Assembly: GCA_025937235.1 (NCBI GenBank)
Contig: JAICRU010000021.1
Span: forward strand, 1-41,748
Length of the DNA: 41,748 nucleotides
Direction: 5' to 3'
Source: Acidimicrobiia bacterium
GTDB taxonomy: Bacteria; Actinomycetota; Acidimicrobiia; Spongiisociales; ZC4RG35
Of this stretch, positions 6,033 to 38,676 are shown in pieces. The translations under genes were made by a program, and so were the position numbers. The first letter of the stretch is position 1; every line of letters starts with the position of its first letter. Below the pieces are notes generated by a model that was given only the letters and a program-made list of their open reading frames with translations, made no database searches and was not told the DNA's origin.

Positions 6033-7805
6033 TCAGAGCCCGTAGATCACCGGCACCAGCCAGACCACGAGCCCGAACACGATCAGTGTCAAAGGGGCAC
6101 CCACCCTCAGATAGTCGGCGATCCGGTATCCGCCGGGGCCATAGACCATGGTGTTGGTCTGATAGCCGAGCGGGGTCAAGAAGCACGCCGAAGCGGCGAT
6201 GGCCACCGCCACTGCCATGCCACGGGGATCGACACCGGCCGCCTGCGCCGAGCTCACCGCGATGGGGAACATGAGGAGGGCGGCGGCGTTGTTGGTGACG
6301 AATTCGGTGAGGGCGATGGTGGCGAGGACCACGCCGGCGAGGACCCCGGCCTCACCCAGGGCCCCGAACAGGGTCACCAGGCCGGACGAGATGTGCGCTG
6401 CCAGCCCCGACGTCTCCATTGCCGCTGCCAGGCCGAATGCCGAGGCGATCACGCCTATGACCTCGAGGTCGATGGCCCGCCGGGCCTCGTCCGGGGTGAG
6501 GATCCGAAGGGCGATGAGAAGGATCGCGGCCCCCAGAGCGGCGTAGAGGATGGGGACGATGCCGAGCGCGGCGAGCAGGATCACCGTGATGAGGATGCCG
6601 ACCACCAGCCATCCCCCCGGGGCGGCGGGCTGAATGTCCTCGTCGAGGGCGGAGATGAGCAAGAAGTCCGACCGCCCGGCCCAGCGGTCGCGGAACCCGG
6701 GGTCGGAGAGCAGTACCAGGGCGTCACCCGTGTGAATCGGCACTTCCCCGAGCTTGGCATCGATGCGGTGCCCGGCGCGGTGGATAGCGAGAACGGCGGC
6801 CTGATAACGCGACCTGAAACCGGACTCTTTCAGCGTCCGACCCACCAACGGGCTGTCTCCGCCGATGGCCACGATGAAGTACGCGGCCGACCGGTCGCGC
6901 ACCGCGCTCACCTGACGGTGCTCGGCGTGCCGTAGCCCTCTCAGATGCTCGAGGTCGAGCACCATGTCGACCCTCCCCACGAAGGTGAGCCTGTTCCCCC
7001 CACGCAGGACCGTGTCCGGTCTGGCCGGAGCGATCACCGTGTCTCTCCGGTCGATCGCCACCAGGAAGACGCCTTCGAGATGACGGAGGCCGGCCTCGTC
7101 GACGGTGATCCCGTCCAGGGCACCGTCCGGGACGACCTCCATCTGGATGGAGAAGTCACGCACATCCTCATCTCTGATCTGGGCGGCGGGGGAGGTCCTT
7201 CCGGCGAGGAGCCGGGGGGAGAGGGCGACGAGGGCGATCAGACCGAGAATGGCGGCGGGGAGACCTATCGCCCCCAGCTCGAAGAAGGCGAACTGCTCCA
7301 TGCCCGCCTCGGTCATCTGACCGGCCACGACCAGGTTCGTCGAGGTACCGATCAGGGTCATCATGCCTCCGAGGCTCGCCCCATAGGCCAGCGGGAGAAG
7401 GAACTTGGCGACGTCGGAGCCGCGGCGACGGGCCCAGCTGGTGACCTCGGGGATCATCATCGCCACCAGGGGGATGTTGTTCATCATCCCGGAGAGCGTG
7501 ATGGTGGGGACGAGCATCCGGAGCATCGGGCGACGGGTGTGGCCGGTCTCGCCCAGAAGCCCCTGGGTGTAGGGCCGGATGGCACCGGTCTTGGCCACGG
7601 CCCGGGCCAGTACGAAGAGGGCGGCGACGGTGAACGGCGCCGGGTTGGAGAATCCGGCCAGGGCCTGGGAGCTGTCGATGACGCCCGCGAACAGCAGGAC
7701 CACCACCCCGGTGAAGACCAGAACCGAGGGCGAGGCAACGTCGAGAACCAAGCCGGCGAGGATCGCGATCACAACTGCGGCGGTCAGCCATGCCTCAGGG
7801 GTCAT
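6033..7805 (-). CDS. DASS/SLC13-family anion permease with two RCK (TrkA-C) domains, probable sulfate transporter
   Basis: About 590 residues from ATG 7805; a TTG two codons earlier is the track start. Hydrophobic helices occupy residues 8-200 and 400-590. Family signatures are NNIPLVAMMIPEV, GTSTNLVVAG in the first half and TEFVTNNAAALLMFPIAV, YQTNTMVYGPGGY in the second, the paired SNT-like motifs of this superfamily. Between the halves are two TrkA-C-like domains at about 220-290 and 310-370. Permeases of this architecture (SAC1/SLT-like) commonly carry sulfate. The gene is divergent from cysD with only 44 nt between them, which supports sulfate as the substrate and suggests shared control. 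Other dicarboxylate-type substrates cannot be excluded from sequence. Confidence 0.85.
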   Translation of the reverse strand: MTPEAWLTAAVVIAILAGLVLDVASPSVLVFTGVVVLLFAGVIDSSQALAGFSNPAPFTVAALFVLARAVAKTGAIRPYTQGLLGETGHTRRPMLRMLVPTITLSGMMNNIPLVAMMIPEVTSWARRRGSDVAKFLLPLAYGASLGGMMTLIGTSTNLVVAGQMTEAGMEQFAFFELGAIGLPAAILGLIALVALSPRLLAGRTSPAAQIRDEDVRDFSIQMEVVPDGALDGITVDEAGLRHLEGVFLVAIDRRDTVIAPARPDTVLRGGNRLTFVGRVDMVLDLEHLRGLRHAEHRQVSAVRDRSAAYFIVAIGGDSPLVGRTLKESGFRSRYQAAVLAIHRAGHRIDAKLGEVPIHTGDALVLLSDPGFRDRWAGRSDFLLISALDEDIQPAAPGGWLVVGILITVILLAALGIVPILYAALGAAILLIALRILTPDEARRAIDLEVIGVIASAFGLAAAMETSGLAAHISSGLVTLFGALGEAGVLAGVVLATIALTEFVTNNAAALLMFPIAVSSAQAAGVDPRGMAVAVAIAASACFLTPLGYQTNTMVYGPGGYRIADYLRVGAPLTLIVFGLVVWLVPVIYGL

Positions 7806-7849
7806 CGCCAAAGTACGCCTACGGTCCGATGGAGCTTTAACCTTTTGCC
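7806..7849. promoter_or_regulatory. Divergent permease/cysD intergenic region
   Basis: Only 44 bases separate the permease ATG from the cysD GTG. No clear Shine-Dalgarno precedes either start, so leaderless transcripts are possible, which are frequent in actinobacteria. Promoters for both directions must overlap here or lie within the genes. I see no obvious operator palindrome. Confidence 0.4.
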
Positions 7850-8758
7850 GTGGCCGCTGTTCAGCCGAGTCATCTCCGCGCCCTCGAATCAGAGTCGATT
7901 CACATCATCCGGGAGGCGGTAGCCGAATCCGAGAATCCTGTCCTCCTCTTCTCGGGGGGCAAGGACTCCGCCCTCGTGCTACGTCTCGCGGTGAAGGCAT
8001 TCTGGCCTGCCCGTCTCCCGTTCCCGGTCATGCACGTCGACACCGGTCACAACTTCGACGAGGTGATCGATTTTCGGGACCGGACCATCGCCGAGCTGGA
8101 GGCGAATCTGATCGTGGCCTCCGTCCAGGAGGCCATCGAGCAGGGGAGGGTGGTCGAAGAGACCGGGCCTCGGGCTTCCCGGAACCGTCTCCAGACCGAG
8201 TCCCTGCTCAACGCTATCGACAAGCACCGCTTCGACGTGGTGTTCGGTGGCGCCCGCCGTGATGAAGAGAAGGCGAGGGCCAAGGAGCGGGTCTTCTCAT
8301 TCCGGGACGAGTTCGGTCAGTGGGACCCCAAGAACCAGAGACCCGAGCTCTGGTCGCTATACAACGGCAGGCACCGTAACGGCGAGCATATGCGGGTGTT
8401 CCCCATCTCCAACTGGACCGAGATGGACGTCTGGCAGTACATCGACCAGGAGGGGGTCGAGCTGCCCTCCGTGTACTTCTCCCACCGACGGCGTGTCTTC
8501 GAACGTGACGGGATGCTGATGGCGGAGTCGCCCTATCTGAGGTTGCTCCCCAACGAAGAGGTGTTCGAGGCCGTGGTGCGCTTCCGGACGGTGGGGGACA
8601 TGACGTGCACCGGTGGCTTCGAGTCGAGGGCAGCCACGGTCCAAGAGATCATCGACGAGGTTTCGATCAGCCGGATCACAGAGCGTGGCGCCAGCCGGGC
8701 CGACGACCGCACCGCCGATGCGGCCATGGAGGACCGCAAGCGGGAGGGCTACTTCTGA
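7850..8758 (+). CDS. cysD: Sulfate adenylyltransferase subunit 2 (CysD)
   Basis: CysD is the catalytic subunit of ATP sulfurylase, which joins sulfate and ATP to make adenosine 5'-phosphosulfate in the cytosol. The 302-residue protein has the PP-loop LLFSGGKDSALVLRLA at about residues 32-47, MHVDTGHNFDEV, GGARRDEEKARAKER and the C-terminal tail DRKREGYF, all typical of CysD, and is full length. Translation starts at GTG 7850. The stop overlaps the cysN ATG by one base (TGATG). It opens a plus-strand run that continues through cysN, cysC and the polysaccharide ABC exporter. Confidence 0.97.
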   Translation: MAAVQPSHLRALESESIHIIREAVAESENPVLLFSGGKDSALVLRLAVKAFWPARLPFPVMHVDTGHNFDEVIDFRDRTIAELEANLIVASVQEAIEQGRVVEETGPRASRNRLQTESLLNAIDKHRFDVVFGGARRDEEKARAKERVFSFRDEFGQWDPKNQRPELWSLYNGRHRNGEHMRVFPISNWTEMDVWQYIDQEGVELPSVYFSHRRRVFERDGMLMAESPYLRLLPNEEVFEAVVRFRTVGDMTCTGGFESRAATVQEIIDEVSISRITERGASRADDRTADAAMEDRKREGYF

Positions 8759-10017
8759 TGACCGAACTGGTTCGCATCGCCACCACAGGCTCGGTCGACG
8801 ACGGGAAGAGCACCCTGATCGGGCGGCTGCTCTTCGACTCCAAGCAGATCTTCGAAGACCAGCTGGTGGCCGTGGAGGACGCCAGCCGGAAGCGGGGCAC
8901 CGACTATGTGGACCTGGCTCTGTTAACCGACGGCCTGCGTGCCGAGCGGGAGCAGGGGATCACCATCGACGTCGCCTACCGCTATTTCGCCACACCGAAG
9001 CGCAGGTTCGTCCTTGCCGACACTCCCGGGCATATCCAGTACACCCGGAACATGGTGACCGGGTCGTCGACGGCGAATATCGCCCTGATCCTGGTCGATG
9101 CCCGCCTGGGGATCCTGGAGCAGACCAGGCGTCACTCGTTCCTCGCCTCGCTGCTCGGCGTGCCCCACCTGGTCCTTTGTGTCAACAAGATGGACCTGGC
9201 CGACTGGTCCCAGGAGCGTTTCGAGGAGATCGTCGACGAGTTCAGGGACTTCGCCACCAGGCTCGACATCCACGATCTCCGTTTCGTCCCAATTTCCGCC
9301 CTGGAAGGGGACAACGTGGTCAACCAGTCGGAGCGCATGCCCTGGTACCACGGACCGACCGTGTTGGAGTTGCTCGAGGAGATCCACATCGGCAGCGACC
9401 AGAACATGATCGATGTGCGATTCCCGGTGCAGTACGTGATCAGGCCCCATCGTCGGGAGTACCAGGACTTCAGGGGGTATGCGGGCAAGGTGGCCGGCGG
9501 GCTGATCAAGCAGGGTGACGAGGTGATGGTCCTGCCCAGCGGGTTCACCACCAAGGTTCGCTCCATCGAGACCTTCGACGGGCCGCTGGAGGAGGCGGCG
9601 CCCCCGATGTCGGTGGTCATCACCCTCGAGGACGATATCGACGTCTCCCGGGGGGACATGCTGTGCCGCCCCCACAACCAGCCCCATGCCTCCCAGGACA
9701 TCGACGCCATGGTCGCCTGGATGTCCGAAGGCCCGCCGCTGAAGGTCGGAGCGAAATACGGCATCAAGCACACCACCCGCTGGGGCAAGGCGATGGTCAA
9801 GGAGTTCCAGTACCGGCTCGACGTCAACACCCTCCACCGTGATGAAACGTCCGAGACTTTGAGTCTGAACGAGATCGGCCGGGTACGGCTGCGCTCCACC
9901 ACACCCCTCTTCTTCGACGAATACCGGCGCAACCGGGAGACCGGCTCTTTCGTCCTCGTCGACGAGGCGACCAACGTCACGGTCGGGGCGGGGATGATCA
10001 CGGGCGAGGGGTCGTGA
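8758..10017 (+). CDS. cysN: Sulfate adenylyltransferase subunit 1, GTPase (CysN)
   Basis: CysN is the EF-Tu-like GTPase that drives APS formation by CysD. The start is ATG 8758, giving 419 residues; the longer track ORF from 8605 runs inside cysD. G1 is GSVDDGKST, then [18 protein letters not shown] (switch I), LADTPGH (G3) and CVNKMD (G4). Beta-barrel domains II and III follow. It is shorter than the 475-residue E. coli protein and is not fused to an APS kinase, unlike many actinobacterial CysNC proteins; the kinase is the next gene. Its stop overlaps the cysC GTG by four bases. Confidence 0.96.
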
Positions 10018-10604
10018 GCGAGAACGTGGTCTGGCACCGGGGTGGGGTCGGGTCAGCGGATCGGGAGCCGACGACAGGGGGCCGGGGTATGACCGTCTGG
10101 ATGACCGGGCTCTCCGGAAGCGGCAAGTCGACCATCGCCTATCTGGCCGAGGAGAGTCTGATCGGTTCGGGGCGGGCGGCCTACGTGCTCGACGGGGACA
10201 ACCTGCGTCACGGTCTCAACGCCGACCTCGGTTTCGGAGCGGAAGATCGAGCCGAGAACGTGCGACGGGTGGGCGAGGTGGCCCGCCTCATGGCCGATGC
10301 CGGTCTGGTGGTGCTGGTGCCGGTGATCTCACCCTTCGCCGCCGACCGGAAGATGGTGCGCGAGGCACACCAGCAGGCCGGGCTGGGCTTCATCGAGGTG
10401 TTCGTCGATGCCCCGCTCGAGGTGTGCGAGGCACGCGACCCCAAGGGTCTCTACGCCCGGGCCCGGGCCGGGGAGATCTCCGAGATGACCGGCATCGATT
10501 CCCCCTATGAGGCGCCGGAGAGCCCCGAACTCAGTCTCGACACCGATGCCTCCGCACCCGAGGAGCTGGCCGAGCTTCTCGTCGCGGAGGTCACCTCGAG
10601 ATGA
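10014..10604 (+). CDS. cysC: Adenylylsulfate kinase (CysC)
   Basis: APS kinase phosphorylates the 3' hydroxyl of APS to give PAPS, the universal sulfuryl donor. The 196-residue protein has Walker [10 protein letters not shown] at about residues 32-40, [10 protein letters not shown], the [12 protein letters not shown] segment, the ISPFAADR loop and [14 protein letters not shown], so all key motifs are present. The first 25 residues before MTVWMTG are extra or the true start is the internal ATG at 10089; GTG 10014 is favoured because it overlaps the cysN stop (GTGA). The gene overlaps the next one, the ABC permease, by four bases, an unusual tie between PAPS synthesis and glycan export. Confidence 0.96.
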
Positions 10605-11422
10605 CCACGACCACCCCATCGCCGGTCTACTACGCCCGTCGCTTCAACGAGTACATGGCCGAGTTGTGGAGGCGACGGGACTTCGTCTGGTTCCTGGCCC
10701 GGGGCAACATCAAGGCACGCAATGCGTCGACCGTGCTCGGGCTCGCCTGGTGGGTCCTCAACCCGCTGCTCCTCGGCTTCGTCTACTTCTTCATATTCGG
10801 CCTGATCTTCCCTACGCAGCGGGACATCGCCTATCTGCTGTCGGGGATATTCGTCTTTCACTACAGCAGCCAGTCCATGTCTGGGGGAGCCAACTCGATA
10901 ATCGGGAACTCCAAGCTGCTGGTGAACATCAGGTTCCCGCGCCTCATCCTGCCCATCGCGTTCCTGCTCGAATCGACCTTTGGTTTCCTGGCCTCACTGG
11001 TGGTCCTCTACCTGATCGTCATCCCCTTCGCCGATGTCATCCCCGGGCCGAGCATCCTTTGGCTCTTAGTGGCCCTGCCCCTTCAGATAGTCTTCAACCT
11101 GGGTCTGGCTGCGGCCACTGCACGCCTGGCAGTGCCCTTCCGTGACATCACCAACCTGATCCCTTACCTGACCCGGATCTGGCTGTACATGTCGCCGATC
11201 ATCTGGCCCCTGTCCATGCTGGAGAGTGTGTCGGAGACATTCCAGGGCCTGTTCCGGCTCAACCCGATGTTCCCCATCATCGCCGTCTATCGGACCGCCC
11301 TTCTTGGCTACCCGCTGGCCCAGGCAGACCTGGTAGCCATGGTGGCCTGGTGTCTGGCGATAGGCGTCATCGGGGTGGCCATGTTCATCAAATTCGAGGG
11401 CCGGATGGTGAGGTACCTGTGA
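10601..11422 (+). CDS. ABC-2 type polysaccharide exporter permease (Wzm/TagG-like)
   Basis: This 273-residue membrane protein has six hydrophobic segments and the ABC-2 pattern of O-antigen and teichoic acid exporters: an N-terminal amphipathic helix ([28 protein letters not shown]), the region [10 protein letters not shown] and the late segment [11 protein letters not shown]...[12 protein letters not shown]. Wzm/TagG proteins form the membrane channel that moves undecaprenyl-linked glycans across the cytoplasmic membrane. It starts at ATG 10601, overlapping the cysC stop, and its own stop overlaps the GTG of the ATPase gene. The cargo is probably the glycan made by this locus. Confidence 0.93.
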
Positions 11423-12186
11423 GCGCCCCCGCCATCAAGGTAGAGAACGTGTGGGTCAGATTCCGGCCCTACGTCGATCGTCGCCCCACGCTGCGCCGCT
11501 CCCTGGCCACATTTCGCCACAAGGAGACCCAGTTGGTCGAAGCACTCAAGGGTGTCTCCTTCGAAGTGCAGAAGGGGGAGGCGTTCGGCGTGGTCGGCCA
11601 GAACGGGGCGGGGAAGAGCACTCTGCTTCGGGTGATGGCCCGCACACTGCGCCCCGATGAAGGCCGGGTGGTAGTCCGGGGCCGGATGTCGACTTTGCTC
11701 CAACTCGGGGTGGGCTTCAATGCGCAGCTCTCCGGGAGCCGCAACATCTATCTGGGGGGCCTGGTGGCCGGCCTCAACAAGAAGCAGGTCGACGAGCGGT
11801 ACGACGAGATAGTGGAGTACTCCGAGCTGGGGGACGCCATCTACCGTCCGATGAAGACCTACTCGTCGGGGATGTTCTCCAGATTGGCGTTTGCGGTTGC
11901 GATGCATCTCGACCCAGAGATCCTCCTCCTCGACGAGGTGCTGGCTGTTGGCGACGAGGGCTTCAAGGAGAAGAGCATGGCCACCATGCACGAGCTGTTG
12001 GACCGGTCGGGAAGCATCGTCTTCGTCAGCCACGCGGTGAGACAGCTCGCCGATTTCTGCGACCGGGCTGCCTGGCTCGACGAGGGCCGGGTCCGCGCCA
12101 TCGGCGAGGCACATGGGGTGGTCGAGGAGTACCGGGAGTTCGTTCAGCGTCGCCGGAAAGAGCTGAGGGCGCAGGGGCTGGCGTGA
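11419..12186 (+). CDS. ABC transporter ATPase for polysaccharide export (Wzt/TagH-like)
   Basis: The GTG at 11419 (GTGA with the permease stop) gives 255 residues; the track's 11350 start lies inside the permease. Walker A is GQNGAGKST, the Q-loop region LLQLGVGFN and NIYLGGLVAGLNKK are typical of Wzt/TagH, the signature is YSSGMFSRLAFAVA and Walker B is ILLLDEVLAVGDEGF, then the H-loop SHAVRQL. It lacks the extra C-terminal carbohydrate-binding domain of long Wzt proteins, so export need not depend on a terminal-sugar modification. Together with the permease it should energise polysaccharide export. Confidence 0.94.
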   Translation: MSAPAIKVENVWVRFRPYVDRRPTLRRSLATFRHKETQLVEALKGVSFEVQKGEAFGVVGQNGAGKSTLLRVMARTLRPDEGRVVVRGRMSTLLQLGVGFNAQLSGSRNIYLGGLVAGLNKKQVDERYDEIVEYSELGDAIYRPMKTYSSGMFSRLAFAVAMHLDPEILLLDEVLAVGDEGFKEKSMATMHELLDRSGSIVFVSHAVRQLADFCDRAAWLDEGRVRAIGEAHGVVEEYREFVQRRRKELRAQGLA

Positions 12187-13454
12187 GGCCCGACGAGAAG
12201 GTCGATTCTGACCTGACCAGGGCCATGGAAGAGTTCCGGACGATCCGTGCCGAGCTCTCAGGCCGCTTGGATGCAGAGATCACTCGCTCACGGGAGTTGA
12301 AACGAGCCCTGGCTCAGGCGGAACGCAAGATCGAATCGATCTTCCAGAGCAAGACCTGGGCCGCGGGCAAGACCTTGCGCCGTCTGGTTCGGCCCTTTTC
12401 TCCGGTCGATGAGGGACCGGCATCGCCACTGGTAGAGATGGAGGAAGCCACGGCGAGTGGCTTCGTCGAAGCCTTGCTGCCGGGCCAACCGCATCCGCTT
12501 TGGACCGAGTATGAGGCTGAAGTGGCCCGCGGGCTGGAGACGGGCAGTGAGGGCCCCGTGTTCATGGTCTCGACCATCAGGTTTGGAGAGGGGCGCGGCG
12601 ATCTGTTCCTGGCCACTGGACTCGGGCGCTACCTGCGCCGGAGCGGCTTTGGTACCGGGTATCTCGATCAGAACGACTGGTACCGGTCTTCACCCGGCGG
12701 CCAGTCCGTCATAGCGATGTTGCCTGCCTTCCGGCCGTCCAAGGCCGCCCCCGGCCCAAAGATCATCGGCTGGGCGCGCAGCGAGTTCGTCAATTGGCTC
12801 ACCCATCCCGAGCTGGATCGCTTCGACGCGATCCTCTGCTCCTCGGTCAAGGCGGCGGCAGAGTTCAGTCGGTACTTCGCCGGCCCCGTCCACGTGCTTC
12901 CCATCGGCGTGGACCTCGAGTTGTTCCAGCCCGATCAAGCCTTGAGCCGAAACCGGGCTGGCGTGGTTTCCACGGTCAACCAGTGGGGGAGAGAGCGCGA
13001 CGTCTACCGAGCGCTGCGTTCAGGCCCAATCGATTTCACCCTTCGAATACATGGCCAGTCGAGGGGACTGCCAGCCGAACTGGCTCGCTATGACCAAGGA
13101 CCTGTCCATTTCTTCGAGCTTCCTGCCGTCTATTGGGGAGCGAAGATCGTCTTGGACGACTTCAACTGGACGACGGTGGGATGGGGGTCAGTCAACAGCC
13201 GCGTGTTCGAGGCAATCGCCGCTGGTGCCCTCCCAGTGACTAACTCGAAGCGGGGTCTCGAGGCGCTGGGCTTGGCGGACGTTCCGACCTACGCCGCCCC
13301 AGACGAATTGAATCCGCTCATCGATCGACTGCTCGGTGATCCCCATGGCACCGATGCCCTGGTCGAGGAGCTGGGCTCTGTGGTGAGGGAGCGGCATTCA
13401 CTCGAGATGAGAGCAGCCGACCTGGTGGCGATCCTGGCCGGGCTCTTGGAATGA
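12183..13454 (+). CDS. CgeB-like family glycosyltransferase with N-terminal coiled coil
   Basis: A 423-residue protein from GTG 12183, overlapping the ATPase stop by four bases. Residues 1-60 are rich in charged heptads (LDAEITRSRELKRALAQAERKIES), a probable coiled coil. The rest resembles GT-B enzymes of the YkvP/CgeB type: VHVLPIGVDLELFQPD, then a second half with GWGSVNSRVFEAIAAGALPVTNSKRGLEAL, where the Glu binds the nucleotide sugar. Such enzymes add a sugar in the cytosol. It closes the six-gene overlapping cys-export run, so it likely acts on the exported polymer. Donor and acceptor are unknown. Confidence 0.8.
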   Translation: MRPDEKVDSDLTRAMEEFRTIRAELSGRLDAEITRSRELKRALAQAERKIESIFQSKTWAAGKTLRRLVRPFSPVDEGPASPLVEMEEATASGFVEALLPGQPHPLWTEYEAEVARGLETGSEGPVFMVSTIRFGEGRGDLFLATGLGRYLRRSGFGTGYLDQNDWYRSSPGGQSVIAMLPAFRPSKAAPGPKIIGWARSEFVNWLTHPELDRFDAILCSSVKAAAEFSRYFAGPVHVLPIGVDLELFQPDQALSRNRAGVVSTVNQWGRERDVYRALRSGPIDFTLRIHGQSRGLPAELARYDQGPVHFFELPAVYWGAKIVLDDFNWTTVGWGSVNSRVFEAIAAGALPVTNSKRGLEALGLADVPTYAAPDELNPLIDRLLGDPHGTDALVEELGSVVRERHSLEMRAADLVAILAGLLE

Positions 13455-18400: not shown

Positions 18401-19147
18401 TCATGCACTGCCGGCGGGGTCGCGTCGTGCCGAGAGGGCTTCCCAAAGTTGGCGCGTAGACCGGGGAAGGTCGACCGAAACGTCCGTGTGGAAGTGTTTG
18501 AGGTCGGGAACGAATCGGGCTCGAAGCGCCAAAGTCAGGTCTGTGGTTGGCGCAGCAACGCCCAAGAACCGAGCCAGCCCCTCGAGTTCGGCGCCGGGAG
18601 ACTCGCTCGTAAGCACGTCGAAATCGACGTAGTGGACCTTGAGATCGTTCAGAGCGAGGAGCGATCTGGCGTGGTAATTCCAGAACCGGTAAGAGACCCA
18701 CAGTGGAACTCGTTGACGACGCTTCAAAGAGTGGGCGACCTGATCGGGCCGACGGAGGCTTACCACGACATCTTGGACGTGTGGATGCCACGCGGGGAGC
18801 GTGAGGGCGAAGCGTGGGTCCTTCACGAAGATGTCTCCGAGGCCATCCGCGGTCCGGTCAATCTCGCAGCGAAGGGCTTCTGCCCGTCGGTCGATCGAAG
18901 CGCGCGCAGGTTGTAGGACGTACCGCACCTGGCTCCACATCGACCGGAATCGCCCTGTAGTTCGCGGAAATCCCGTGATAATCCTGCTGTTCAAATCGAT
19001 GACGTCACGTCGCTCGAAGTAGCCCTCCTGATTCCACTCATCGGCGGCGTAAAAGGCAGTGTGGTCGCCGAACTCCAAACCGAGCGCGTGGACGGTCATC
19101 GCCACAAAGGACGTCCCCGATCTATGCACGCCGGTCACCACCCTCAT
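18401..19147 (-). CDS. Sulfotransferase family protein
   Basis: A 248-residue protein. The N-terminus MRVVTGVHRSGTSFVAMTVHALG fits the 5'-phosphosulfate-binding loop of PAPS-dependent sulfotransferases, and FVKDPRFALTLPAWHPHVQDVVVSLRRPDQVAHSL fits the 3'-phosphate-binding region (the Arg and Ser pair). It would move sulfuryl groups from PAPS to an acceptor, probably a sugar hydroxyl given the neighbours. The local PAPS genes cysDNC lie about 9 kb away. The ATG at 19147 is followed directly by the motif, so there is no signal peptide and action is cytosolic. Confidence 0.8.
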   Translation of the reverse strand: MRVVTGVHRSGTSFVAMTVHALGLEFGDHTAFYAADEWNQEGYFERRDVIDLNSRIITGFPRTTGRFRSMWSQVRYVLQPARASIDRRAEALRCEIDRTADGLGDIFVKDPRFALTLPAWHPHVQDVVVSLRRPDQVAHSLKRRQRVPLWVSYRFWNYHARSLLALNDLKVHYVDFDVLTSESPGAELEGLARFLGVAAPTTDLTLALRARFVPDLKHFHTDVSVDLPRSTRQLWEALSARRDPAGSA

Positions 19148-27229: not shown

Positions 27230-27766
27230 ATGGCACGGCTTTCCAACGAACCGGAGGTAATCGAGGCCAGCGCCTTCGAAGACTCCAGGGGGTTCTTCAT
27301 AGAGTCGTTCAACCAAGCGGCGATCGAGGATCGCGTCGGCGACTTTCGGTGGGTTCAAGACAACCACTCCAGGTCGCGTGTCGGCGTTATCAGGGGCCTC
27401 CACTATCAACTACCACCCAAGGCCCAAGGCAAGCTAGTAATGGTCATTCGTGGAGCGATCTTCGACGTCGCAGTCGACATCAGAAGAACTTCACCGACTT
27501 TCGGTAACTGGACCGGCGTGCACCTCTCGGACGAGAACCACCGGCAGTACTGGATTCCGCCGGGATTTGCACATGGGTTCGTAGCTCTGACCGATCCGGC
27601 GGACGTGGTTTACAAGGTGACCGAGTACTACTCATCGGAGCACGATCGCGCGATCCGATGGGATGATCCCGACATCGGCATCGAGTGGCCGGTCGACGTC
27701 GACCCGATCATCTCTGAGAGGGACGCGACGGCCCCGTACTTGCGGGACGCCGACGTTTTCGCATAG
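27230..27766 (+). CDS. rfbC: dTDP-4-dehydrorhamnose 3,5-epimerase (RfbC)
   Basis: RfbC converts dTDP-4-keto-6-deoxyglucose to its L-lyxo form, the third step of dTDP-L-rhamnose synthesis. The 178-residue protein has FEDSRGFFIESFN, QDNHSRSRVGVIRGLHYQ (catalytic His) and the core YWIPPGFAHGFVAL, and ends with RDADVFA. Key residues appear intact and the length is normal. The other three pathway genes, rfbBAD, lie 2.8 kb downstream. Between them are two foreign-looking genes and then a decayed copy of the 3' end of an rfbC gene. Confidence 0.95.
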   Translation: MARLSNEPEVIEASAFEDSRGFFIESFNQAAIEDRVGDFRWVQDNHSRSRVGVIRGLHYQLPPKAQGKLVMVIRGAIFDVAVDIRRTSPTFGNWTGVHLSDENHRQYWIPPGFAHGFVALTDPADVVYKVTEYYSSEHDRAIRWDDPDIGIEWPVDVDPIISERDATAPYLRDADVFA

Positions 27767-27816
27767 GTTGATCCAGTGCCACCCGAACTTGAGCGTCGGT
27801 GCTGGGTCCGAAGCAC

Positions 27817-29493
27817 ATGAACGTCGTCGTCTACACCGCAGTCTTCAATGACTACGACATCCTGTGGGGCCCCAGGGTGCGAAGTGAAGACGTGCGTTTT
27901 GTGTGCTTTTCCGACCGGCCAATCGTCAGAACCGAGGGTTGGGAAGTGGTTCAGGTCGATCCCCAGAACGGTCATCCTTTCTCGCAGCGCTTCTACAAGC
28001 TTTGTTCTCACCTCGTTTTCCCCGAAGCGGATGTGACTCTCTACCTCGATGGGACGTTCGAGTTGCTAGTCGACCCTCTTCAACTAGTCGACCGGTACCT
28101 GAGCAAATGGGACCTGGCGCTTTTTCGGCATCCCCAGAGACAGGGGGTCTTCGAGGAACTCGACGCGTGTGCCAGATTGGGAAAAGACGACCGTCGCCTC
28201 TTGGAAATGATTGCGGAGCTGTACGCATCCGAGGGCATGCCGGCGAGCGGTTACCTGCGTGCTGGTGGCTTCATCCTCCGCCGTCATTCTCAAGAAGTGG
28301 CTGCGTTCAACGAATGCTGGTTCAGGGAACTCGTTCGTTCCGGGATACGCGATCAGCCTCCACTGGCACACGCCCTGTGGGAGAGCGGAATCTCATTCGA
28401 GACTATCGACGACAACATATGGCGCAACGACATGATGAATTACCATCCGCACAAGGAGAAGCTCCTCCCAGAGCAACGAAGGTTCCTGTTTCTCGGTGGC
28501 AGTCCGCGCTCGGCTACGACAATGCTGCACGGACTCCTTAACAATGATCCTCGCATCGCTCTCGGTAAGGAGCGATACAACACGATAAGGGAAAGGATCA
28601 CTCCGGAGGATTTCTCCGATCACAGTTTCTTTGCGTCAACCCAGGAGGAGACCTCGTCTGTGCCAGCGCGGATGATCCCGCCGGACCAAGCGGGGTTCAG
28701 AGTCTGGCCGGAGGACGAAGCTTCGATGAAGGAGAAATGGACATCAGACACATTGGTGTACATAGGCGATACGTCACCGTTTTACGTCTGGCAACTACCG
28801 TATCTGAGAGAGACATTTCCAGGCGCACGATTCATCGTGATGATTCGAGACCCGGTGTCCAGGGCCGATTCATACCAGAGAAGAAGAGGCTTCGAAGATA
28901 ACTGGCAGTCTGGGAATGACCTCCAGTTGGAAGCTGAGGACCGGGATCAGAATGCGGAGAATCTTCTTGCCTATCTGGAGCGCTTCGGCTTCAACGATGT
29001 CTTCATCATCGACTACGACACCTTCTATGGAGGAGATCGCGACTATCTGCTGTCCCTCTACAGGTTCCTTGACCTGGAAATCGCCCCCGAAGTACAGCGA
29101 CAGTTCGATCTCTTGACCTCCGAGTGGGGTTCTAGCCAACCGCTCCGTCGCGGCCTTGCCGGTGAGGCCGAGGTCGGCCGTCAGTCGAGTCGGGAGGCGT
29201 ACTCGCAGATTCGGCCCGTCCTGCCGATCATGCGCGATTACCACCTGCTTGCACTTGAGCGTGCGGCGCGGATCGACTCAGAGGAGAGGCTTTCAAGCGA
29301 GATGGAAACGAACAGGGGACTTCGCGATCTAGGCCGGTTCCTCTATTTGACTGTCAGAGCTCTGCTTCAGGATGAAGCCATCGGCAACCCCACCGACATT
29401 CAAAGGGCACAGAGGGCCGAGACCGCATGGAGGTCGTTCTGGAAATTGCCGGATTCTGCCGAGACGCCGGCTGCAGGCTGTGGCGGGGAATAG
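27817..29493 (+). CDS. TOD1/DUF616-like glycosyltransferase domain fused to a sulfotransferase
   Basis: Starting at ATG 27817 (GTG 27799 in the track), the protein has about 558 residues. The N-terminal half resembles TOD1/MUCI70 (DUF616) glycosyltransferase-like proteins: MNVVVYTAVFNDYDILWGP, FYKLCSHLVFPEADVTLYLDGTFEL and GVFEELDAC. From about residue 222 comes FLFLGGSPRSATTMLHGLL, the PAPS 5'-phosphosulfate loop, and later IVMIRDPVSRADSYQRRR, the 3'-phosphate loop. So one chain could both add a sugar and sulfate it (inference). It lies in the segment that splits rfbC from rfbBAD, has a lower apparent G+C than the rfb genes, and was probably acquired. Confidence 0.82.
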   Translation: MNVVVYTAVFNDYDILWGPRVRSEDVRFVCFSDRPIVRTEGWEVVQVDPQNGHPFSQRFYKLCSHLVFPEADVTLYLDGTFELLVDPLQLVDRYLSKWDLALFRHPQRQGVFEELDACARLGKDDRRLLEMIAELYASEGMPASGYLRAGGFILRRHSQEVAAFNECWFRELVRSGIRDQPPLAHALWESGISFETIDDNIWRNDMMNYHPHKEKLLPEQRRFLFLGGSPRSATTMLHGLLNNDPRIALGKERYNTIRERITPEDFSDHSFFASTQEETSSVPARMIPPDQAGFRVWPEDEASMKEKWTSDTLVYIGDTSPFYVWQLPYLRETFPGARFIVMIRDPVSRADSYQRRRGFEDNWQSGNDLQLEAEDRDQNAENLLAYLERFGFNDVFIIDYDTFYGGDRDYLLSLYRFLDLEIAPEVQRQFDLLTSEWGSSQPLRRGLAGEAEVGRQSSREAYSQIRPVLPIMRDYHLLALERAARIDSEERLSSEMETNRGLRDLGRFLYLTVRALLQDEAIGNPTDIQRAQRAETAWRSFWKLPDSAETPAAGCGGE

Positions 29494-30558: not shown

Positions 30559-31530
30559 GTGTCCCGCAAATATCTGGTGACCGGTGGTGCCGGATTCATC
30601 GGATCGAACTTCGTGCGTTACGTCCTCGAGAAGGAGCCCGACGCTTCGGTGACGAATCTCGACCTCCTCACCTATGCGGGAGTGAAGGCGACCGTCGACG
30701 AGTTGGATCGGTTGCCGGGGCACACCTTCGTGCTCGGTGACATACGCGACCCGGATCTCGTCAACCGGCTCATGCAGGGCATCGACGTGGTCGTCCATTT
30801 CGCCGCCGAGAGCCATGTCGACCGCTCGATCACCGGGCCGTCGGTGTTCCTCGAGACCAACGTCGTCGGCACCGGTGTCCTGCTCGACGCCGCAGCCAGG
30901 CAGGGAGTGCGGAGGTTCATCCATGTCTCCACCGACGAGGTCTACGGGTCGGTGGCCGAGGGCTTCGCCCCCGAGGACGCCCTGCTCGACCCTTCCTCTC
31001 CATACTCGGCATCCAAGGCGGGGAGCGACCTCGTCGCCCTCTCCTACCGGGTTACCTTCGACTACCCGGTGATCGTCACCCGCTGCACCAACAACTACGG
31101 GCCCTACCAGTTCCCGGAGAAGGTCATCCCCCTCTTCGTCACCAACCTCCTCGACGACCTCGAGGTGCCCCTCTACGGGACCGGGTCCAACGAGCGGGAC
31201 TGGCTCTTCGTCGAGGACCATTGCTCGGGCCTCTACCTTCTCGTCGACGAAGGCGCGCCCGGGGAGATCTACAACATCGGGGCCAACGCCCAGATGACCA
31301 ACCTCGATCTCACCCGACGAATACTGGAGATCATGGACAAGGACGAGTCCTCGATCGAATACGTCGAGGATCGCAAGGGCCATGACCTCAGATACGCCGT
31401 TGACTCCTCGAAGATCCGGGCCCTGGGCTGGGCGCCGACACACGACTTCGACGAGCGCATCTCCGACACGGTCGACTGGTACCGGAGCCGCGAGGACTGG
31501 TGGCGACCACTGAAGAAGGCGAGCGCGTGA
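30559..31530 (+). CDS. rfbB: dTDP-glucose 4,6-dehydratase (RfbB)
   Basis: RfbB makes dTDP-4-keto-6-deoxyglucose in dTDP-L-rhamnose synthesis. The 323-residue SDR has the NAD site VTGGAGFIGSNFV, then HFAAESHVDRSI, STDEVYGS and the catalytic YSASKAGSD, followed by RCTNNYGPYQFPEKVIPL. It is full length. The GTG start at 30559 comes 10 nt after the decayed rfbC end. Its stop overlaps the GTG of rfbA by four bases. Compared with the two genes upstream its codons are again G+C-rich. Confidence 0.96.
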   Translation: MSRKYLVTGGAGFIGSNFVRYVLEKEPDASVTNLDLLTYAGVKATVDELDRLPGHTFVLGDIRDPDLVNRLMQGIDVVVHFAAESHVDRSITGPSVFLETNVVGTGVLLDAAARQGVRRFIHVSTDEVYGSVAEGFAPEDALLDPSSPYSASKAGSDLVALSYRVTFDYPVIVTRCTNNYGPYQFPEKVIPLFVTNLLDDLEVPLYGTGSNERDWLFVEDHCSGLYLLVDEGAPGEIYNIGANAQMTNLDLTRRILEIMDKDESSIEYVEDRKGHDLRYAVDSSKIRALGWAPTHDFDERISDTVDWYRSREDWWRPLKKASA

Positions 31531-32402
31531 AAGGCATCGTCCTCGCCGGCGGGGCCGGCACCAGGCTCGACCCGATGACCCGGGTGGCCAGCAAGCAGCT
31601 GCAGCCCGTCTACGACAAGCCGATGGTCTACTACCCGCTGGCCACGCTGATGGAGGCCGGGATCTCGGAAACCCTGCTCATCTCCACCCCACACGACATT
31701 CCTCGGTTCGAGGACCTGTTGGGGGACGGGACACCATGGGGCATCTCCATCGAATACGCTGTCCAAGAACATCCCGGCGGCATCGCCCAAGCCTTCCTCG
31801 TCGGTGAATCCTTCGTGGGCACCGACCCGGTGGCTCTCATCCTTGGCGACAACATCTTCTACGGAGCGCTCGGCCTGGCCGAGATCGTGGAGGGGTTCAC
31901 AGGCGGCGCACTCGTTTTCGGATACCCGGTCTCCGACCCCGAAAGATACGGCGTCGTCGAGCTCGCCGACGACGGCAAGGTTCTCTCCCTGGAGGAGAAG
32001 CCGGCCAGACCCAAGTCGAACCTTGCGGTGCCCGGCTTCTACCTCTACGACGGGAGGGTGGTGGAGATTACCAAGCGGCTCAAGCCCTCGGCCCGGGGCG
32101 AACTCGAGATCACCGACCTGAACCGGGCTTATATGGAGGAGGGGACTCTCCGGGCCGTGCCCTTGGGGCGGGGCATCGCCTGGCTGGACAGCGGCACCCA
32201 TGACTCCCTGCTCGAGGCGGCCAACTTCATCGCCACCATCGAACACCGGCAGGGGCTAAAGATCGCCTGTCTCGAGGAGATCGCGCTGGACCGTGGCCTG
32301 GTCAGCCTGCAGCAGATGGAGGCGACCCTTTCGGCCATGCCCAACTCCACTTACCGCGACTACGTGGCTCGGGTGCTCGGGGAGCACCGATCAGAGGCAT
32401 AG
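31527..32402 (+). CDS. rfbA: Glucose-1-phosphate thymidylyltransferase (RfbA)
   Basis: RfbA joins glucose-1-phosphate and dTTP to dTDP-glucose, the first pathway step. The proper start is GTG 31527 (GTGA with the rfbB stop), giving 291 residues; the 31500 start in the track lies within rfbB. The protein begins VKGIVLAGGAGTRLDPMT and has YDKPMVYYPLATLMEAGI, LGDNIFYG and the end YRDYV, all typical. The stop at 32402 is overlapped by the following rfbD reading frame. Confidence 0.95.
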   Translation: MKGIVLAGGAGTRLDPMTRVASKQLQPVYDKPMVYYPLATLMEAGISETLLISTPHDIPRFEDLLGDGTPWGISIEYAVQEHPGGIAQAFLVGESFVGTDPVALILGDNIFYGALGLAEIVEGFTGGALVFGYPVSDPERYGVVELADDGKVLSLEEKPARPKSNLAVPGFYLYDGRVVEITKRLKPSARGELEITDLNRAYMEEGTLRAVPLGRGIAWLDSGTHDSLLEAANFIATIEHRQGLKIACLEEIALDRGLVSLQQMEATLSAMPNSTYRDYVARVLGEHRSEA

Positions 32403-33229
32403 CGGTCCTCGGAGCGGGGGGCCAGCTGGGAACCGCCTTCATGCGTCTTCTCGGCGACGACGCAGTACCGCTGACCAGGGCCGATCTGGATCTTGCCAGC
32501 CCTGATCACATCGCCCCCACCCTCGACGGGCTCGACCCTTCGATGGTGGTCAACTGTGCCGCCTACACCGCGGTCGACCGGGCAGAGGAGGAAGAGGACC
32601 TGGCCACAGCGGTCAACTCGGTGGCGGTGGGGGTCCTCGCCGAGTGGGCCGCGGTGCGCTCCCGGCCGATGCTGACCTTCTCCACCGACTATGTCTTCGA
32701 CGGGTTCTCCGACGAGCCCTACGTGGAGACCTCACCGACCAACCCAGTCAATGCTTATGGCCGCTCCAAGCTCCCCGGTGAGACGCTGGCCGTGGGGCAG
32801 GGGGCCTTGGTGGTGCGCACCTCGTGGGTGATCTCGGGCAGCCACCCCAACTTCGTGGCCACCATCCTCCACAAGGTCAAAGAGCAGGAGCTACGGGTGG
32901 TGGACGACCAACGGGGCAACCCAACGGTGGCGGCCGATCTGGCCCGGGCCAGCTTCGACGCCCTCGGTGCCGGTGTCACCGGGCTGCTCCATCTGACCAA
33001 CGAAGGGGAGACAACCTGGTACGAGCTGGCCCGGACCAGTGTTGGTCTGGCCGACCTCGACCCCTCCCGGATCTCGCCATGTGCCACCGAGGACTACCCG
33101 ACCCCGGCCCGGCGACCCGCCTATTCGGTGCTCGCCTCGGAGCGGCTGGAGGACCTCGGGCTCGAGCCACTCCCACACTGGCGCACGTCGATCTGGCATG
33201 TCGTGGACGAGCTCAAGACCTGGATCTGA
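32390..33229 (+). CDS. rfbD: dTDP-4-dehydrorhamnose reductase (RfbD), apparent non-canonical start
   Basis: RfbD reduces dTDP-4-keto-L-rhamnose to dTDP-L-rhamnose. Catalytic STDYVFDG and the YGRSK pair (YxxxK) are present, as is the substrate part VVRTSWVISG. The track ORF begins at ATG 32441, but the conserved Rossmann start GIAVLGAGGQLGTAF is encoded upstream in frame, with no ATG, GTG or TTG between it and the frame's earlier codons. ATC 32390 with GGGGAG 5 nt ahead gives (M)RGIAVLGAGGQLG, a normal RfbD N-terminus; ATA 32399 is another possibility. A start at 32441 would delete the NADPH-binding loop. The 3' end overlaps the convergent GT2 gene by 17 nt. Confidence 0.9.
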   Translation: MRGIAVLGAGGQLGTAFMRLLGDDAVPLTRADLDLASPDHIAPTLDGLDPSMVVNCAAYTAVDRAEEEEDLATAVNSVAVGVLAEWAAVRSRPMLTFSTDYVFDGFSDEPYVETSPTNPVNAYGRSKLPGETLAVGQGALVVRTSWVISGSHPNFVATILHKVKEQELRVVDDQRGNPTVAADLARASFDALGAGVTGLLHLTNEGETTWYELARTSVGLADLDPSRISPCATEDYPTPARRPAYSVLASERLEDLGLEPLPHWRTSIWHVVDELKTWI

Positions 33230-35832: not shown

Positions 35833-36567
35833 GTGCCGGGCGGATATCCGACAGTCACCATGCTCCACGTCGGTCGTTGTGGGAGCACGGTCGTGGCCGA
35901 GATGCTGGGTCGTCACCCGTCGATCTCATGGGACGGTGAGGTGTTCGAACCGAAGGTGCGGGCCAAGATCGGTTACGAGGATGTTCCGCCTGTGGCGTTC
36001 CTCCGCGACCGTATCGCCCGGGCTCCCGAAATCTACGGGTTCGAGATCAAATACCTGCCCTCGCATCACCAGCGAGTCCTCGGCCTCGACCTGGAAGGCA
36101 TCCTCCAGCTGACCGACTCAGTGGGTGTCAGCCTCTACGTGACCCTGCATCGGCGCAACTACCTGCGGAGGGTGGTGTCCGGTGTGATCGGGAGGGAGCG
36201 GCGACGATGGCATCGAACCTCCGATCAGCCCACGCCGGACACGAAAGTCCGGGTCGATCTTGGCGCAGTGCCATTCGGGCCCCGCCAGCCGCTTCTGGAG
36301 GTCCTGGAGGAGATGAAGAAAGGGGAGGCGGATCTGAAATCGGCGTTGTTGGATCGGGCCGCCCTACATCTCACGTATGAAGACGACGTGGCGATCGACC
36401 CGGTCAAGGCTTACACGTCGGTGTGTGAATTCATCGGCATCACGCCGGAGGATGTGCGGCCCGCGCTGGGGCGGACAGGCACCGATCGACTCGAATCGAT
36501 GGTGACCAACTACGACGAGATCGTCGAGGCCCTGTCCGGCACCGAATATGCCTGGATGCTGGACTAG
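35833..36567 (+). CDS. Sulfotransferase-like protein
   Basis: A 244-residue protein from GTG 35833. TVTMLHVGRCGSTVVAEMLGRHPSISWDGEVF resembles the PAPS-binding N-terminus of Stf0-like sulfotransferases, with a Cys in place of the usual Ser/Thr. The second motif, ETHRRNY-like in this group, appears as LYVTLHRRNYLRRVVSGVIG, with the arginine and serine for 3'-phosphate contacts. It sits 12 nt before a second sulfotransferase gene. The family assignment is less certain than for that neighbour, but the tandem pair supports it. Confidence 0.72.
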   Translation: MPGGYPTVTMLHVGRCGSTVVAEMLGRHPSISWDGEVFEPKVRAKIGYEDVPPVAFLRDRIARAPEIYGFEIKYLPSHHQRVLGLDLEGILQLTDSVGVSLYVTLHRRNYLRRVVSGVIGRERRRWHRTSDQPTPDTKVRVDLGAVPFGPRQPLLEVLEEMKKGEADLKSALLDRAALHLTYEDDVAIDPVKAYTSVCEFIGITPEDVRPALGRTGTDRLESMVTNYDEIVEALSGTEYAWMLD

Positions 36568-36578
36568 ATCTCCGCCCG

Positions 36579-37400
36579 ATGTTACGTCGACGCCCGAGCC
36601 AAGAGCCACCGGTCGAGTTGCCGATGGCCCCACCCCTTTGGGTCATCGGCGCGCCTCGCTCGGGAACGACCTTCCTGGCGCGGGTGCTGGACCACCACCC
36701 TCAGGTTCTTCTGACCAACGAGACCCGGATCATGCTCCTGTTCAGCAGAATGTTGAACAGATGGGTCGAGTCGCGTCGTCTCCTGGCAACCTCAAAGGCC
36801 GAAATCCTCGACAGCCTGTGGCGCCAGACACCTGGCGTGATCGAGCAGATCTATCGGGATCTCGGCGCCAGACCGGGGCAGCGTTGGGGCGACAAGTATC
36901 CGCAGTATGCCGACGGTGACCAGGAACCGGAAGCGTTGGCTACCATCGACCGTCTGTTCCCAGAGGGCCAATACGTCCACATCATCCGAGACCCGAGGGC
37001 GGTCGTGGCTTCGATCGTGGCCAAGGGGTGGCTCCCGTTCGACGAGGCGATCCAAGCTTGGCGCGACTTCGTGACTCATGCCATGGCCTTCGGACAAGGT
37101 GTCGGGTCGAGCCGTTACCACGAGCTCAGGTTCGAGGATCTGGTGACCGACGGACCGACGACGGTCGACTCGATCCTGAAGTTCCTCGGCCTTCCCGATG
37201 ATGAGGGCGTCGTCCGATTCCTCCGCTCCCAGGAATCGGGGCGCGATCGATTGAGTTATCCGACGGGGATTCCGGGGAGCATCGGACCGGCGGCTTGGGA
37301 AGCACGACTCGACGGCGAGCAGGTACGAGCCGTGGAGTCCAAGCTCGGCGACCTGATGACCGAACTGGGTTACGAACGCTCTTCGTCATCGACGTACTGA
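36579..37400 (+). CDS. Sulfotransferase family protein
   Basis: The 273-residue protein carries WVIGAPRSGTTFLARVLDHHPQV (about residues 21-43), the standard 5'-phosphosulfate loop, and YVHIIRDPRAVVASIVAKGW, the 3'-phosphate loop with its Arg and Ser. It also ends with the PAPS-family-typical region LRFEDLVTD and LKFLGLPDD. It would sulfate a sugar, probably the locus glycan, in the cytosol using PAPS from CysC. The 12-nt gap to the preceding sulfotransferase suggests one transcript. No signal peptide or membrane helix is visible. Confidence 0.9.
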   Translation: MLRRRPSQEPPVELPMAPPLWVIGAPRSGTTFLARVLDHHPQVLLTNETRIMLLFSRMLNRWVESRRLLATSKAEILDSLWRQTPGVIEQIYRDLGARPGQRWGDKYPQYADGDQEPEALATIDRLFPEGQYVHIIRDPRAVVASIVAKGWLPFDEAIQAWRDFVTHAMAFGQGVGSSRYHELRFEDLVTDGPTTVDSILKFLGLPDDEGVVRFLRSQESGRDRLSYPTGIPGSIGPAAWEARLDGEQVRAVESKLGDLMTELGYERSSSSTY

Positions 37401-37465: not shown

Positions 37466-37585
37466 ATGGGTCTACCCGTACGCGCATCGATCGACATTCG
37501 CAGAGTGCGCGATGGGAGATACGGGAGGTCCATCTTCCGAAGATTCAAGAGCCCGGAACGGAGCGCCGATACTGCTCCGGCGTGA
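37466..37585 (+). CDS. Small basic protein or leader peptide, 39 aa
   Basis: Hidden at the end of a longer track ORF, ATG 37466 opens a 39-codon frame (MGLPVRASIDIRRVRDGRYGRSIFRRFKSPERSADTAPA) behind GAGGAGGAAGAC, one of the strongest ribosome binding sites in the window. Its stop overlaps the GTG start of the M23 peptidase gene by four bases (GTGA). It is rich in Arg, has no membrane helix and resembles no family I know. It may be a real small protein or mainly serve to couple translation of the peptidase gene, which has no good site of its own. Confidence 0.6.
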   Translation: MGLPVRASIDIRRVRDGRYGRSIFRRFKSPERSADTAPA

Positions 37586-38676
37586 GGAACCCGACACGAC
37601 TGATAGCGGGACTCGTGTTGATCCTCGGGACCGTCTTTGTCCCGAGCGCACCCGCTGAGGCCGCAGCCTTCGATCCCAGCGGGATGGCTTTCCCCCTCGA
37701 CGGGGAGTACCGGCTCACCGACAGCTTCGGTGACTGTCGTGGCTCCGGGTGCTCGAGGGCACACGAGGGCGTCGACATCATGGCGGAGAAGGGCGTCCCA
37801 GTCCTGGCCGCCGGCGCCGGTGTCGTCTCCTGGATCAGTTCCGGACCCGGGGACTGTTGTTATCTCGGTATCGATCATGGCGGGGGTTGGGTAACCCGCT
37901 ACATACATCTCAACGACGACAAGAAGGACGCCGCCGGGAACTACATCGACGGCTCCGACGGTCAGGGCTGGGGGATCGCCAAGGGAATCGTCGAGGGCAC
38001 CCAGGTGAGGAGAGGCCAGCACATCGGCTGGGTGGGCGACTCGGGCAACGCCACCGAAGGCGTGCCCCACCTCCATTTCGAGTTGCGCAAGGACGGTGCA
38101 GCCATCGATGCCTACCCCTACTTGGTCAGCGCGGCCGTCGGATGGGACGGTCGGTTCAGTGACGACGACGGCAACGTCCATGAGGCGAACATCGAGATCA
38201 TCGCCGAACGTGGGATCACCATCGGCTGCAACCCGCCGCTCAACAACAAGTTCTGCCCCGAGGCTCAGATAACACGGGGTCAAATGGCGGCCTTCATCGC
38301 ACGTGCCCTCGATCTGCCCAACAAGGGAGAGATCCCATACACCGATGTGGTCGGCAACAAGTTCGAGCCGGCGATACGAGGTATCGAGGCGGCCGGCATC
38401 GGGTTTGGCTGCACCGAGACCGAGTTCTGCCCCGACGTCCCGCTGCTCCGCCATGAGATGGCCGAGTTGCTGGTGCGGGCCTTCGGCTACGACAACCCGG
38501 ACGGAACCGACTTCTTCGTCGACGATGAGGGGAACCCGTTCGAAGACTCGATCAACGCCCTGGCGGCCCATCGCATCACGATGGGGTGCAACCCACCGGC
38601 CAACACCAACTACTGCCCGGACATGCCGTTGAAGCGCTCGCAGATGGCGACATTCTTCGTACGGGCCCTGCCCTGA
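37582..38676 (+). CDS. Secreted M23 peptidase with SLH-like repeats
   Basis: This 364-residue protein begins with a signal peptide (MRNPTRLIAGLVLILGTVFVPSAPAEA). Residues 40-185 form an M23/LytM metallopeptidase domain: HEGVDIMA supplies the HxxxD zinc motif and HLHFEL the HxH motif, so catalysis looks intact. Such enzymes cut peptidoglycan cross-bridges. Three SLH-like units follow, with GCNPPLNNKFCP and GCNPPANTNYCP in the first and third; the middle one is shortened (GCTETEFCP). They match the repeats in the M15 and SLH proteins at the left end of the window. The GTG start at 37582 is coupled to the 39-codon ORF. Confidence 0.9.
   Translation: MRNPTRLIAGLVLILGTVFVPSAPAEAAAFDPSGMAFPLDGEYRLTDSFGDCRGSGCSRAHEGVDIMAEKGVPVLAAGAGVVSWISSGPGDCCYLGIDHGGGWVTRYIHLNDDKKDAAGNYIDGSDGQGWGIAKGIVEGTQVRRGQHIGWVGDSGNATEGVPHLHFELRKDGAAIDAYPYLVSAAVGWDGRFSDDDGNVHEANIEIIAERGITIGCNPPLNNKFCPEAQITRGQMAAFIARALDLPNKGEIPYTDVVGNKFEPAIRGIEAAGIGFGCTETEFCPDVPLLRHEMAELLVRAFGYDNPDGTDFFVDDEGNPFEDSINALAAHRITMGCNPPANTNYCPDMPLKRSQMATFFVRALP

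Follow-up and report, generated by a model that had tools for sequence, protein, structure and literature searches.

Why should the genes for synthesis of 3′-phosphoadenosine 5′-phosphosulfate (PAPS) lie in a single run of overlapping reading frames with those of a polysaccharide exporter, and what is the PAPS made there used for? This question is raised by contig C20 of an Acidimicrobiia bacterium. The window analysed here is that whole contig, 41,748 bp in length, from a draft genome (G000) of 3.08 Mb in 171 contigs that is 96.7% complete. A first-pass annotation had suggested that PAPS from this run sulfates the exported polymer instead of entering assimilation. Based on the window, its genome and the order to which it belongs (99 genomes, labelled G000 etc., which are related and partly incomplete, so that order-wide P-values are indicative only), we think it probable that the locus is a dedicated sulfation module, comprising sulfate import, PAPS synthesis, sulfation of a glycan and export by an ATP-binding cassette (ABC) transporter of the Wzm-Wzt kind.

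The run occupies 7850-13454 on the + strand and consists of cysD (7850..8758, small subunit of ATP sulfurylase), cysN (8758..10017, its GTPase subunit), cysC (10014..10604, kinase of adenosine 5′-phosphosulfate, APS), wzm (10601..11422, ABC-2 polysaccharide export permease), wzt (11419..12186, polysaccharide exporter ATPase) and, as the last gene, a glycosyltransferase (12183..13454; PF13524, 55 bits). As read from the sequence, successive genes overlap by 1, 4, 4, 4 and 4 nt: the TGA of cysD (8756-8758) shares 1 nt with the ATG of cysN at 8758, and 4 nt are shared at GTGA 10014-10017 (cysN/cysC), ATGA 10601-10604 (cysC/wzm), GTGA 11419-11422 (wzm/wzt) and GTGA 12183-12186 (wzt/glycosyltransferase). 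Reading of the junctions and scoring of the families thus bear out the earlier description of PAPS genes, exporter and glycosyltransferase as one run with 1-4 nt stop/start overlaps. The overlap of the reading frames, our sole ground here, suggests translational coupling between the PAPS and exporter genes.

CysD (PF01507, 154 bits; TIGR02039, 445 bits), CysN (TIGR02034, 571 bits; NF003478, 608 bits, both above cut-off) and CysC (PF01583, 228 bits; TIGR00455, apsK, 243 bits) each exceed the curated family cut-offs (396.6, 336 and 139 bits for TIGR02039, TIGR02034 and TIGR00455, respectively), and the PP-loop of CysD (SGGKDS), the GTPase motifs and the Walker motif of CysC are intact in the translations. 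An ABC-2 permease (PF01061, 33 bits) adjoining a polysaccharide-type ATPase (PF00005, 79 bits) places the exporter in the Wzm-Wzt/TagGH type. The best solved relatives of Wzt, which is without a C-terminal carbohydrate-binding domain, include TagH, TarH and RfbE (E-values 2e-59 to 2e-49). No NCBIfam equivalog cut-off was reached by the pair, and the sole NCBIfam match of Wzm, to the galactan export permease NF050109, fell below its cut-off. Homologues of Wzm with 48-89% identity were found in G002, G013, G017, G035, G038, G044 and G045. All six genes recur as a run in G002 of the same genus, at 71-92% protein identity (71% for the glycosyltransferase), and the 1-4 nt overlaps are the same; in G001, also of this genus and 98% complete, neither cysC nor cysD nor such a wzm was detected.

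CysDNC usually serve assimilation, and the genome is a 171-contig draft; PAPS could therefore feed an ordinary assimilatory pathway whose reductive genes are missing through incomplete assembly or divergence of the enzymes. However, no match to PF01077 (NIR_SIR), the marker of sulfite reductase, was found in this 96.7% complete genome, although the same search was positive in 11 of 14 control genomes. PF01507 (PAPS_reduct) covers the CysH/CysD family, to which the thiol-dependent APS/PAPS reductases belong as well, and its sole match in the genome is CysD, leaving no CysH. The absence of a CysH-type PAPS reductase, noted earlier for the window, thus extends to the whole genome; moreover, an arrangement with cysH/cysI beside the run and no other cysDN copy was looked for and not found. 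The pair of CysH and sulfite reductase that defines assimilatory sulfate reduction is accordingly missing.

The order as a whole tells the same story. Strong APS kinase matches occur in 43 of the 99 genomes and sulfite reductase in 6, with strong CysH-type matches confined to the same six, and PF01077 is lacking in 39 of the 43 cysC-bearing genomes. APS kinase is not associated with sulfite reductase (P = 0.40), but it is with sulfotransferases (PF13469, cut-off 27 bits): 33 genomes have both, 10 cysC only, 5 a sulfotransferase only and 51 neither (Fisher P = 2e-12; 2e-7 to 6e-7 with one value per genus). Some families carry a fused Sat-APS kinase instead of CysDNC, so that two unrelated sulfate-activation systems show the same order-wide pattern. 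In G008, which has an assimilatory set (rhodanese, sulfite reductase, a CysG-CysH fusion and SUMT), these genes lie on a different contig from cysDNC; the fusion (L263:4622-5929) joins a CysG-type sirohaem synthase domain to CysH. Because CysH and sulfite reductase are absent, because the distribution of cysC follows that of sulfotransferases but not that of sulfite reductase, and because the reductive genes of G008 stand apart, the view that PAPS here serves sulfation, not assimilation, is supported, as the first-pass annotation had it. An assimilatory role is rejected on the genome-wide absence of PF01077 and CysH; that explanation is already largely refuted, and we regard it as very improbable.

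Enzymes that could transfer the sulfate group are encoded on the same contig. Four sulfotransferase domains within 30 kb had been counted, and the count is fair, with two solid cases and two weak ones. Two + strand genes score above the PF13469 cut-off: a TOD1/MUCI70 glycosyltransferase-like domain fused to a sulfotransferase (27799..29493; PF04765, 70 bits; PF13469, 74 bits), and a sulfotransferase with the motif GAPRSGTT (36579..37400; PF13469, 106 bits; PF00685, 36 bits). A probable sulfotransferase with the motif GRCGST (35833..36567, + strand) reaches 24.6 bits in PF13469, below the cut-off, and hhalign gave 90% to a sulfotransferase profile over 34 columns only; its predicted structure is of low quality (pLDDT 33), and an orthologue in G002 (L162, 81% identity) adjoins the orthologue of 36579-37400. 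The fourth (18401..19147, - strand; SLRRPDQVAHSLKRR), with GVHRSGTS, is a probable divergent sulfotransferase that matched nothing in Pfam or NCBIfam and was assigned by its motifs (HRSGTS; LRRPDQVAHS) and by profile-profile comparison with a sulfotransferase profile (hhalign 95.7% over 88 columns). PDB profile searches with the two weak cases gave nothing useful. The fourth protein is 28% identical to the N-terminus of a fusion protein encoded after cysC in Mangrovicella (L122). That protein of Mangrovicella endophytica (L122:11553-16790; 1745 residues, ∼1 kb after cysC) combines a sulfotransferase-like N-terminus with apparent glycosyltransferase domains.

Across 40 sulfotransferase neighbourhoods of the order, a GT2/GT4-type glycosyltransferase gene was present in 18, compared with 1 of 40 control regions (P = 8e-6; the control regions began at contig ends and the profiles were home-made). 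Sulfotransferases lie close to sulfate-activation genes in G002, G056 and G071 and apart from them in most genomes. In G002 a GT4 gene, a sulfotransferase gene, cysD and cysN form one run (L160); this cysD-cysN pair (C247, L160:10976-15004), the second of that genome, directly follows the GT4-sulfotransferase pair, and no cysC was detected on C247. On contig C122 of G071 (L209, 226-3419) a sulfotransferase gene is directly followed by one for a 745-residue protein containing ATP sulfurylase, and no APS kinase was detected in that genome.

Is the polymer carried by the Wzm-Wzt pair itself sulfated, as had been proposed? Homologues of the exporter stand with sulfotransferases in two other genomes. 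In G017, wzm-wzt is followed by a gene for a 1302-residue protein that combines two sulfotransferase domains with a glycosyltransferase domain, in this order, and in G044, wzm-wzt lies with rml genes and a sulfotransferase; the product of 36579-37400 is 42% identical to its homologue beside wzm-wzt in G017 and 48% to that in G044. Several observations weigh against the proposal. Equally close orthologues of the exporter occur in G035, G038 and G045, where neither cysC nor PF13469 was detected, and an exporter specific to sulfated chains was therefore rejected. Wzm-type genes are weakly enriched near sulfotransferases, at 4/40 against 0/40 (P = 0.12) once hand-picked loci are left aside; the larger figure of 7/51 against 0/40 was not relied on, since 3 of the 7 had helped to build the profile. 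The neighbours of cysDNC differ in most relatives, 10 cysC-bearing genomes have no detected sulfotransferase, and no dedicated CysQ was found in the genome, where the one PF00459 gene belongs to the generic IMPases and scores below both CysQ cut-offs (DHH-type phosphatases of 3′-phosphoadenosine 5′-phosphate were not searched). Conservation of cysDNC next to wzm-wzt, which the first-pass annotation had wished to see in relatives, holds for the full run of G002, but direct adjacency is limited to two family members, both of this genus.

A different explanation is that PAPS is made for sulfation but mainly of something other than the Wzm-Wzt polymer; the sulfotransferases would act on further glycans, on glycolipids or on small molecules, among them the products of a cluster on contig C35, and cysDNC and wzm-wzt would be neighbours through a shared role in envelope biogenesis. 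No sulfotransferase lies within the six-gene run, exporter orthologues exist without cysC or sulfotransferase, cysDNC has unrelated neighbours in other genomes, and C35 (L038, L039) bears three more sulfotransferase genes with an ABC-2 permease, an ABC ATPase and glycosyltransferases of its own, making a second envelope-glycan region. Nevertheless, the run and its overlaps are kept in G002, wzm-wzt adjoins sulfotransferases in G017 and G044, and the structurally solved precedents of Vibrio and Cobetia, described below, export via ABC transporters. We consider this alternative unlikely, though far more plausible than assimilation. We conclude that the order uses this exporter for envelope glycans in general and that sulfation was added in some lineages, and a sulfated polymer exported by this wzm-wzt pair appears to be the most economical reading of the gene arrangement.

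Upstream of the run and divergent from cysD, an SLC13/DASS-type anion permease with two TrkA-C domains is encoded on the - strand (6033..7811; PF03600, 212 bits; PF02080 twice; PF00939, 61 bits). PF03600 and PF00939 exceed their cut-offs, and TIGR00785 (DASS) reaches 136 bits, below its cut-off of 198.6. A homologue is divergent to cysD in G008 (L042) and G022 (L169), and another, 68% identical, lies beside a fused PAPS synthase in G019 (L057), so that SLC13 genes neighbour sulfate-activation systems of two unrelated kinds. From this context, the permease is probably a sulfate importer. SLC13-like proteins bearing TrkA-C domains have been described in algae as sulfate transporters (PMC8780407), and in bacteria members of the DASS family that transport sulfate have been characterised (PMC5840216).

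In the dedicated module that we favour, the SLC13-type permease would bring sulfate into the cell, where CysDN, by family assignment, would form APS and CysC would convert it to PAPS. Because the genome is without CysH and sulfite reductase, this PAPS should be able to go only to sulfotransferases, which is a strong expectation. Cytosolic sulfotransferases would then modify a rhamnose-containing, perhaps pyruvylated surface glycan during its intracellular assembly, and the Wzm-Wzt pair encoded in the same run would export the completed chain; the overlapping frames would presumably link the supply of PAPS to production of the exporter. Since the cytosol is the site both of PAPS synthesis and of the completion of ABC-exported glycans, which precedes their export, sulfation at that stage is mechanistically coherent.

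Comparable gene sets are known. In Vibrio sp. KMM 8419, whose capsule structure has been solved and is sulfated, one locus holds cysDNC, ABC export, rml and sulfotransferase genes, and the authors regard PAPS genes with sulfotransferases in a polysaccharide cluster as a hallmark of sulfated polysaccharide synthesis (PMC11641403). Both loci contain cysD, cysN, cysC, an ABC exporter (Kps in Vibrio), rmlABCD, glycosyltransferases and several sulfotransferases. The Vibrio cys genes, however, are second copies, and the strain has another set. The present locus lacks the Gram-negative kps components, its cys and exporter reading frames overlap directly, and the reductive branch is missing from the genome. 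The sulfated capsule locus of Cobetia marina KMM 1449, also with a solved polymer structure, includes a sulfate permease, cysQ and a pyruvyltransferase (PMC11766843); it resembles the present locus in having cysNC, cysD and the sulfate permease by an ABC exporter, together with rhamnose genes, a sulfotransferase and the pyruvyltransferase, but it specifies a Gram-negative group III capsule, cysNC is fused and cysQ lies in the locus, whereas no cysQ stands beside the genes here. By gene content, then, PAPS genes, exporter, sulfotransferases and sugar genes lie in one locus here as in Vibrio and Cobetia.

Other parallels are partial. The wps-1 polysaccharide cluster of Actinoplanes missouriensis has two sulfotransferases, and sulfation was predicted by its authors without chemical proof (PMC13390465, June 2026). 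Normal sporangia require AMIS_7390, a gene for sulfate adenylyltransferase/APS kinase that lies next to the cluster (PMC13390465). Like our locus, wps-1 is an actinobacterial polysaccharide cluster with sulfotransferases and a nearby sulfate-activation gene; unlike it, wps-1 uses Wzx/Wzy export, and its authors relate AMIS_7390 to sulfur amino acids rather than to PAPS supply. The synechan xss cluster of Synechocystis 6803 likewise has sulfotransferases inside an extracellular polysaccharide cluster, and its product was shown to be sulfated, but export is by Wzx/Wzy and the text of the paper makes no mention of PAPS genes in the cluster (PMC8205485). In mycobacteria, actinobacterial CysDN and APS kinase also supply sulfotransferases, but the pathway is shared with assimilation via APS reductase and the products are Sulfolipid-1, SL1278 and menaquinone S881, with no exported polysaccharide (PMC3141025). 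Asticcacaulis taihuensis (L129) has cysD-cysNC-wzm-wzt, with the ABC-2/ABC pair following the cys genes as here; this Alphaproteobacterium, however, has a fused cysNC and a Wzm only 25% identical. Such clusters are known in marine Proteobacteria and hardly described in actinobacteria; the features that set this one apart are its host group and the almost complete lack of reductive genes in the order.

On a broader scale, the order may largely have given up sulfate reduction, while in about two fifths of its genomes activation (by CysDNC or a Sat-CysC fusion) would persist almost exclusively for the sulfation of envelope glycans and, in one genus, translational coupling would link PAPS synthesis to a glycan exporter; we hold this general view with no more than even confidence. 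If true, it would make sulfated surface polysaccharides an ordinary feature of actinobacteria. Annotation routinely assigns CysDNC to the cysteine pathway, which is wrong for this genome and, by gene content, for most cysC-bearing members of the order; inferences on sulfur nutrition change likewise, since these bacteria would depend on a source of reduced or organic sulfur. As genes for sulfate reduction are missing, a cysC mutant should be impaired in sulfation alone, and the locus offers a testable case of sulfated surface polysaccharides in actinobacteria, for which the wps-1 study has a prediction only. It also suggests a reason for the defect of the sulfate adenylyltransferase/APS-kinase mutant next to wps-1.

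The dTDP-rhamnose genes of the window lie on the + strand in the order rmlC (27230..27766; PF00908, 231 bits), rmlB-like dehydratase (30559..31530; PF16363, 243 bits), rmlA nucleotidyltransferase (31500..32402; PF00483, 212 bits) and rmlD, for dTDP-4-dehydrorhamnose reductase (32441..33229; PF04321, 266 bits), an order also found in G019. Several glycosyltransferases and two PMT-type membrane proteins are encoded downstream of the run as well.

SLH domains bind pyruvylated polymers, and this allows a refinement compatible with the sulfation module: SLH-domain proteins would be anchored by the sulfated glycan, itself a pyruvylated secondary cell-wall polymer whose charge sulfation would tune. 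A protein with an M23 peptidase and SLH domains (37582..38676, + strand; PF01551, 70 bits), further SLH proteins (3-1952, 1988-2986) and a polysaccharide pyruvyl transferase (40099..41733, - strand; PF04230, 80 bits) are encoded on the same contig, and a homologue of the M23-SLH protein lies near wzm-wzt in four other genera of the order, in several families (G010, G013, G035 and G044; L170, L171, L172 and L173). The pyruvyl transferase, however, lies outside the operon, and we put the refinement forward tentatively, as a somewhat doubtful one. The SLH set of the window includes M15 peptidase/FG-GAP and M23 peptidase proteins.

Some other genes may bear on the envelope. The product of 25048-27213 (+ strand) is a membrane-anchored protein of the alkaline phosphatase superfamily (PF00884, 68 bits); a type I sulfatase trimming the glycan was considered and rejected, as the C/S-X-P-S-R formylglycine motif is absent, and it is perhaps a phospho-substituent transferase instead. 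A multi-helix membrane protein encoded at 15156-16436 (- strand), with no Pfam or NCBIfam match, appears to resemble a Wzx-type flippase. Finally, 20514-23921 (- strand) encodes a 1135-residue fusion of methyltransferase, GT2 and GT4-type domains.

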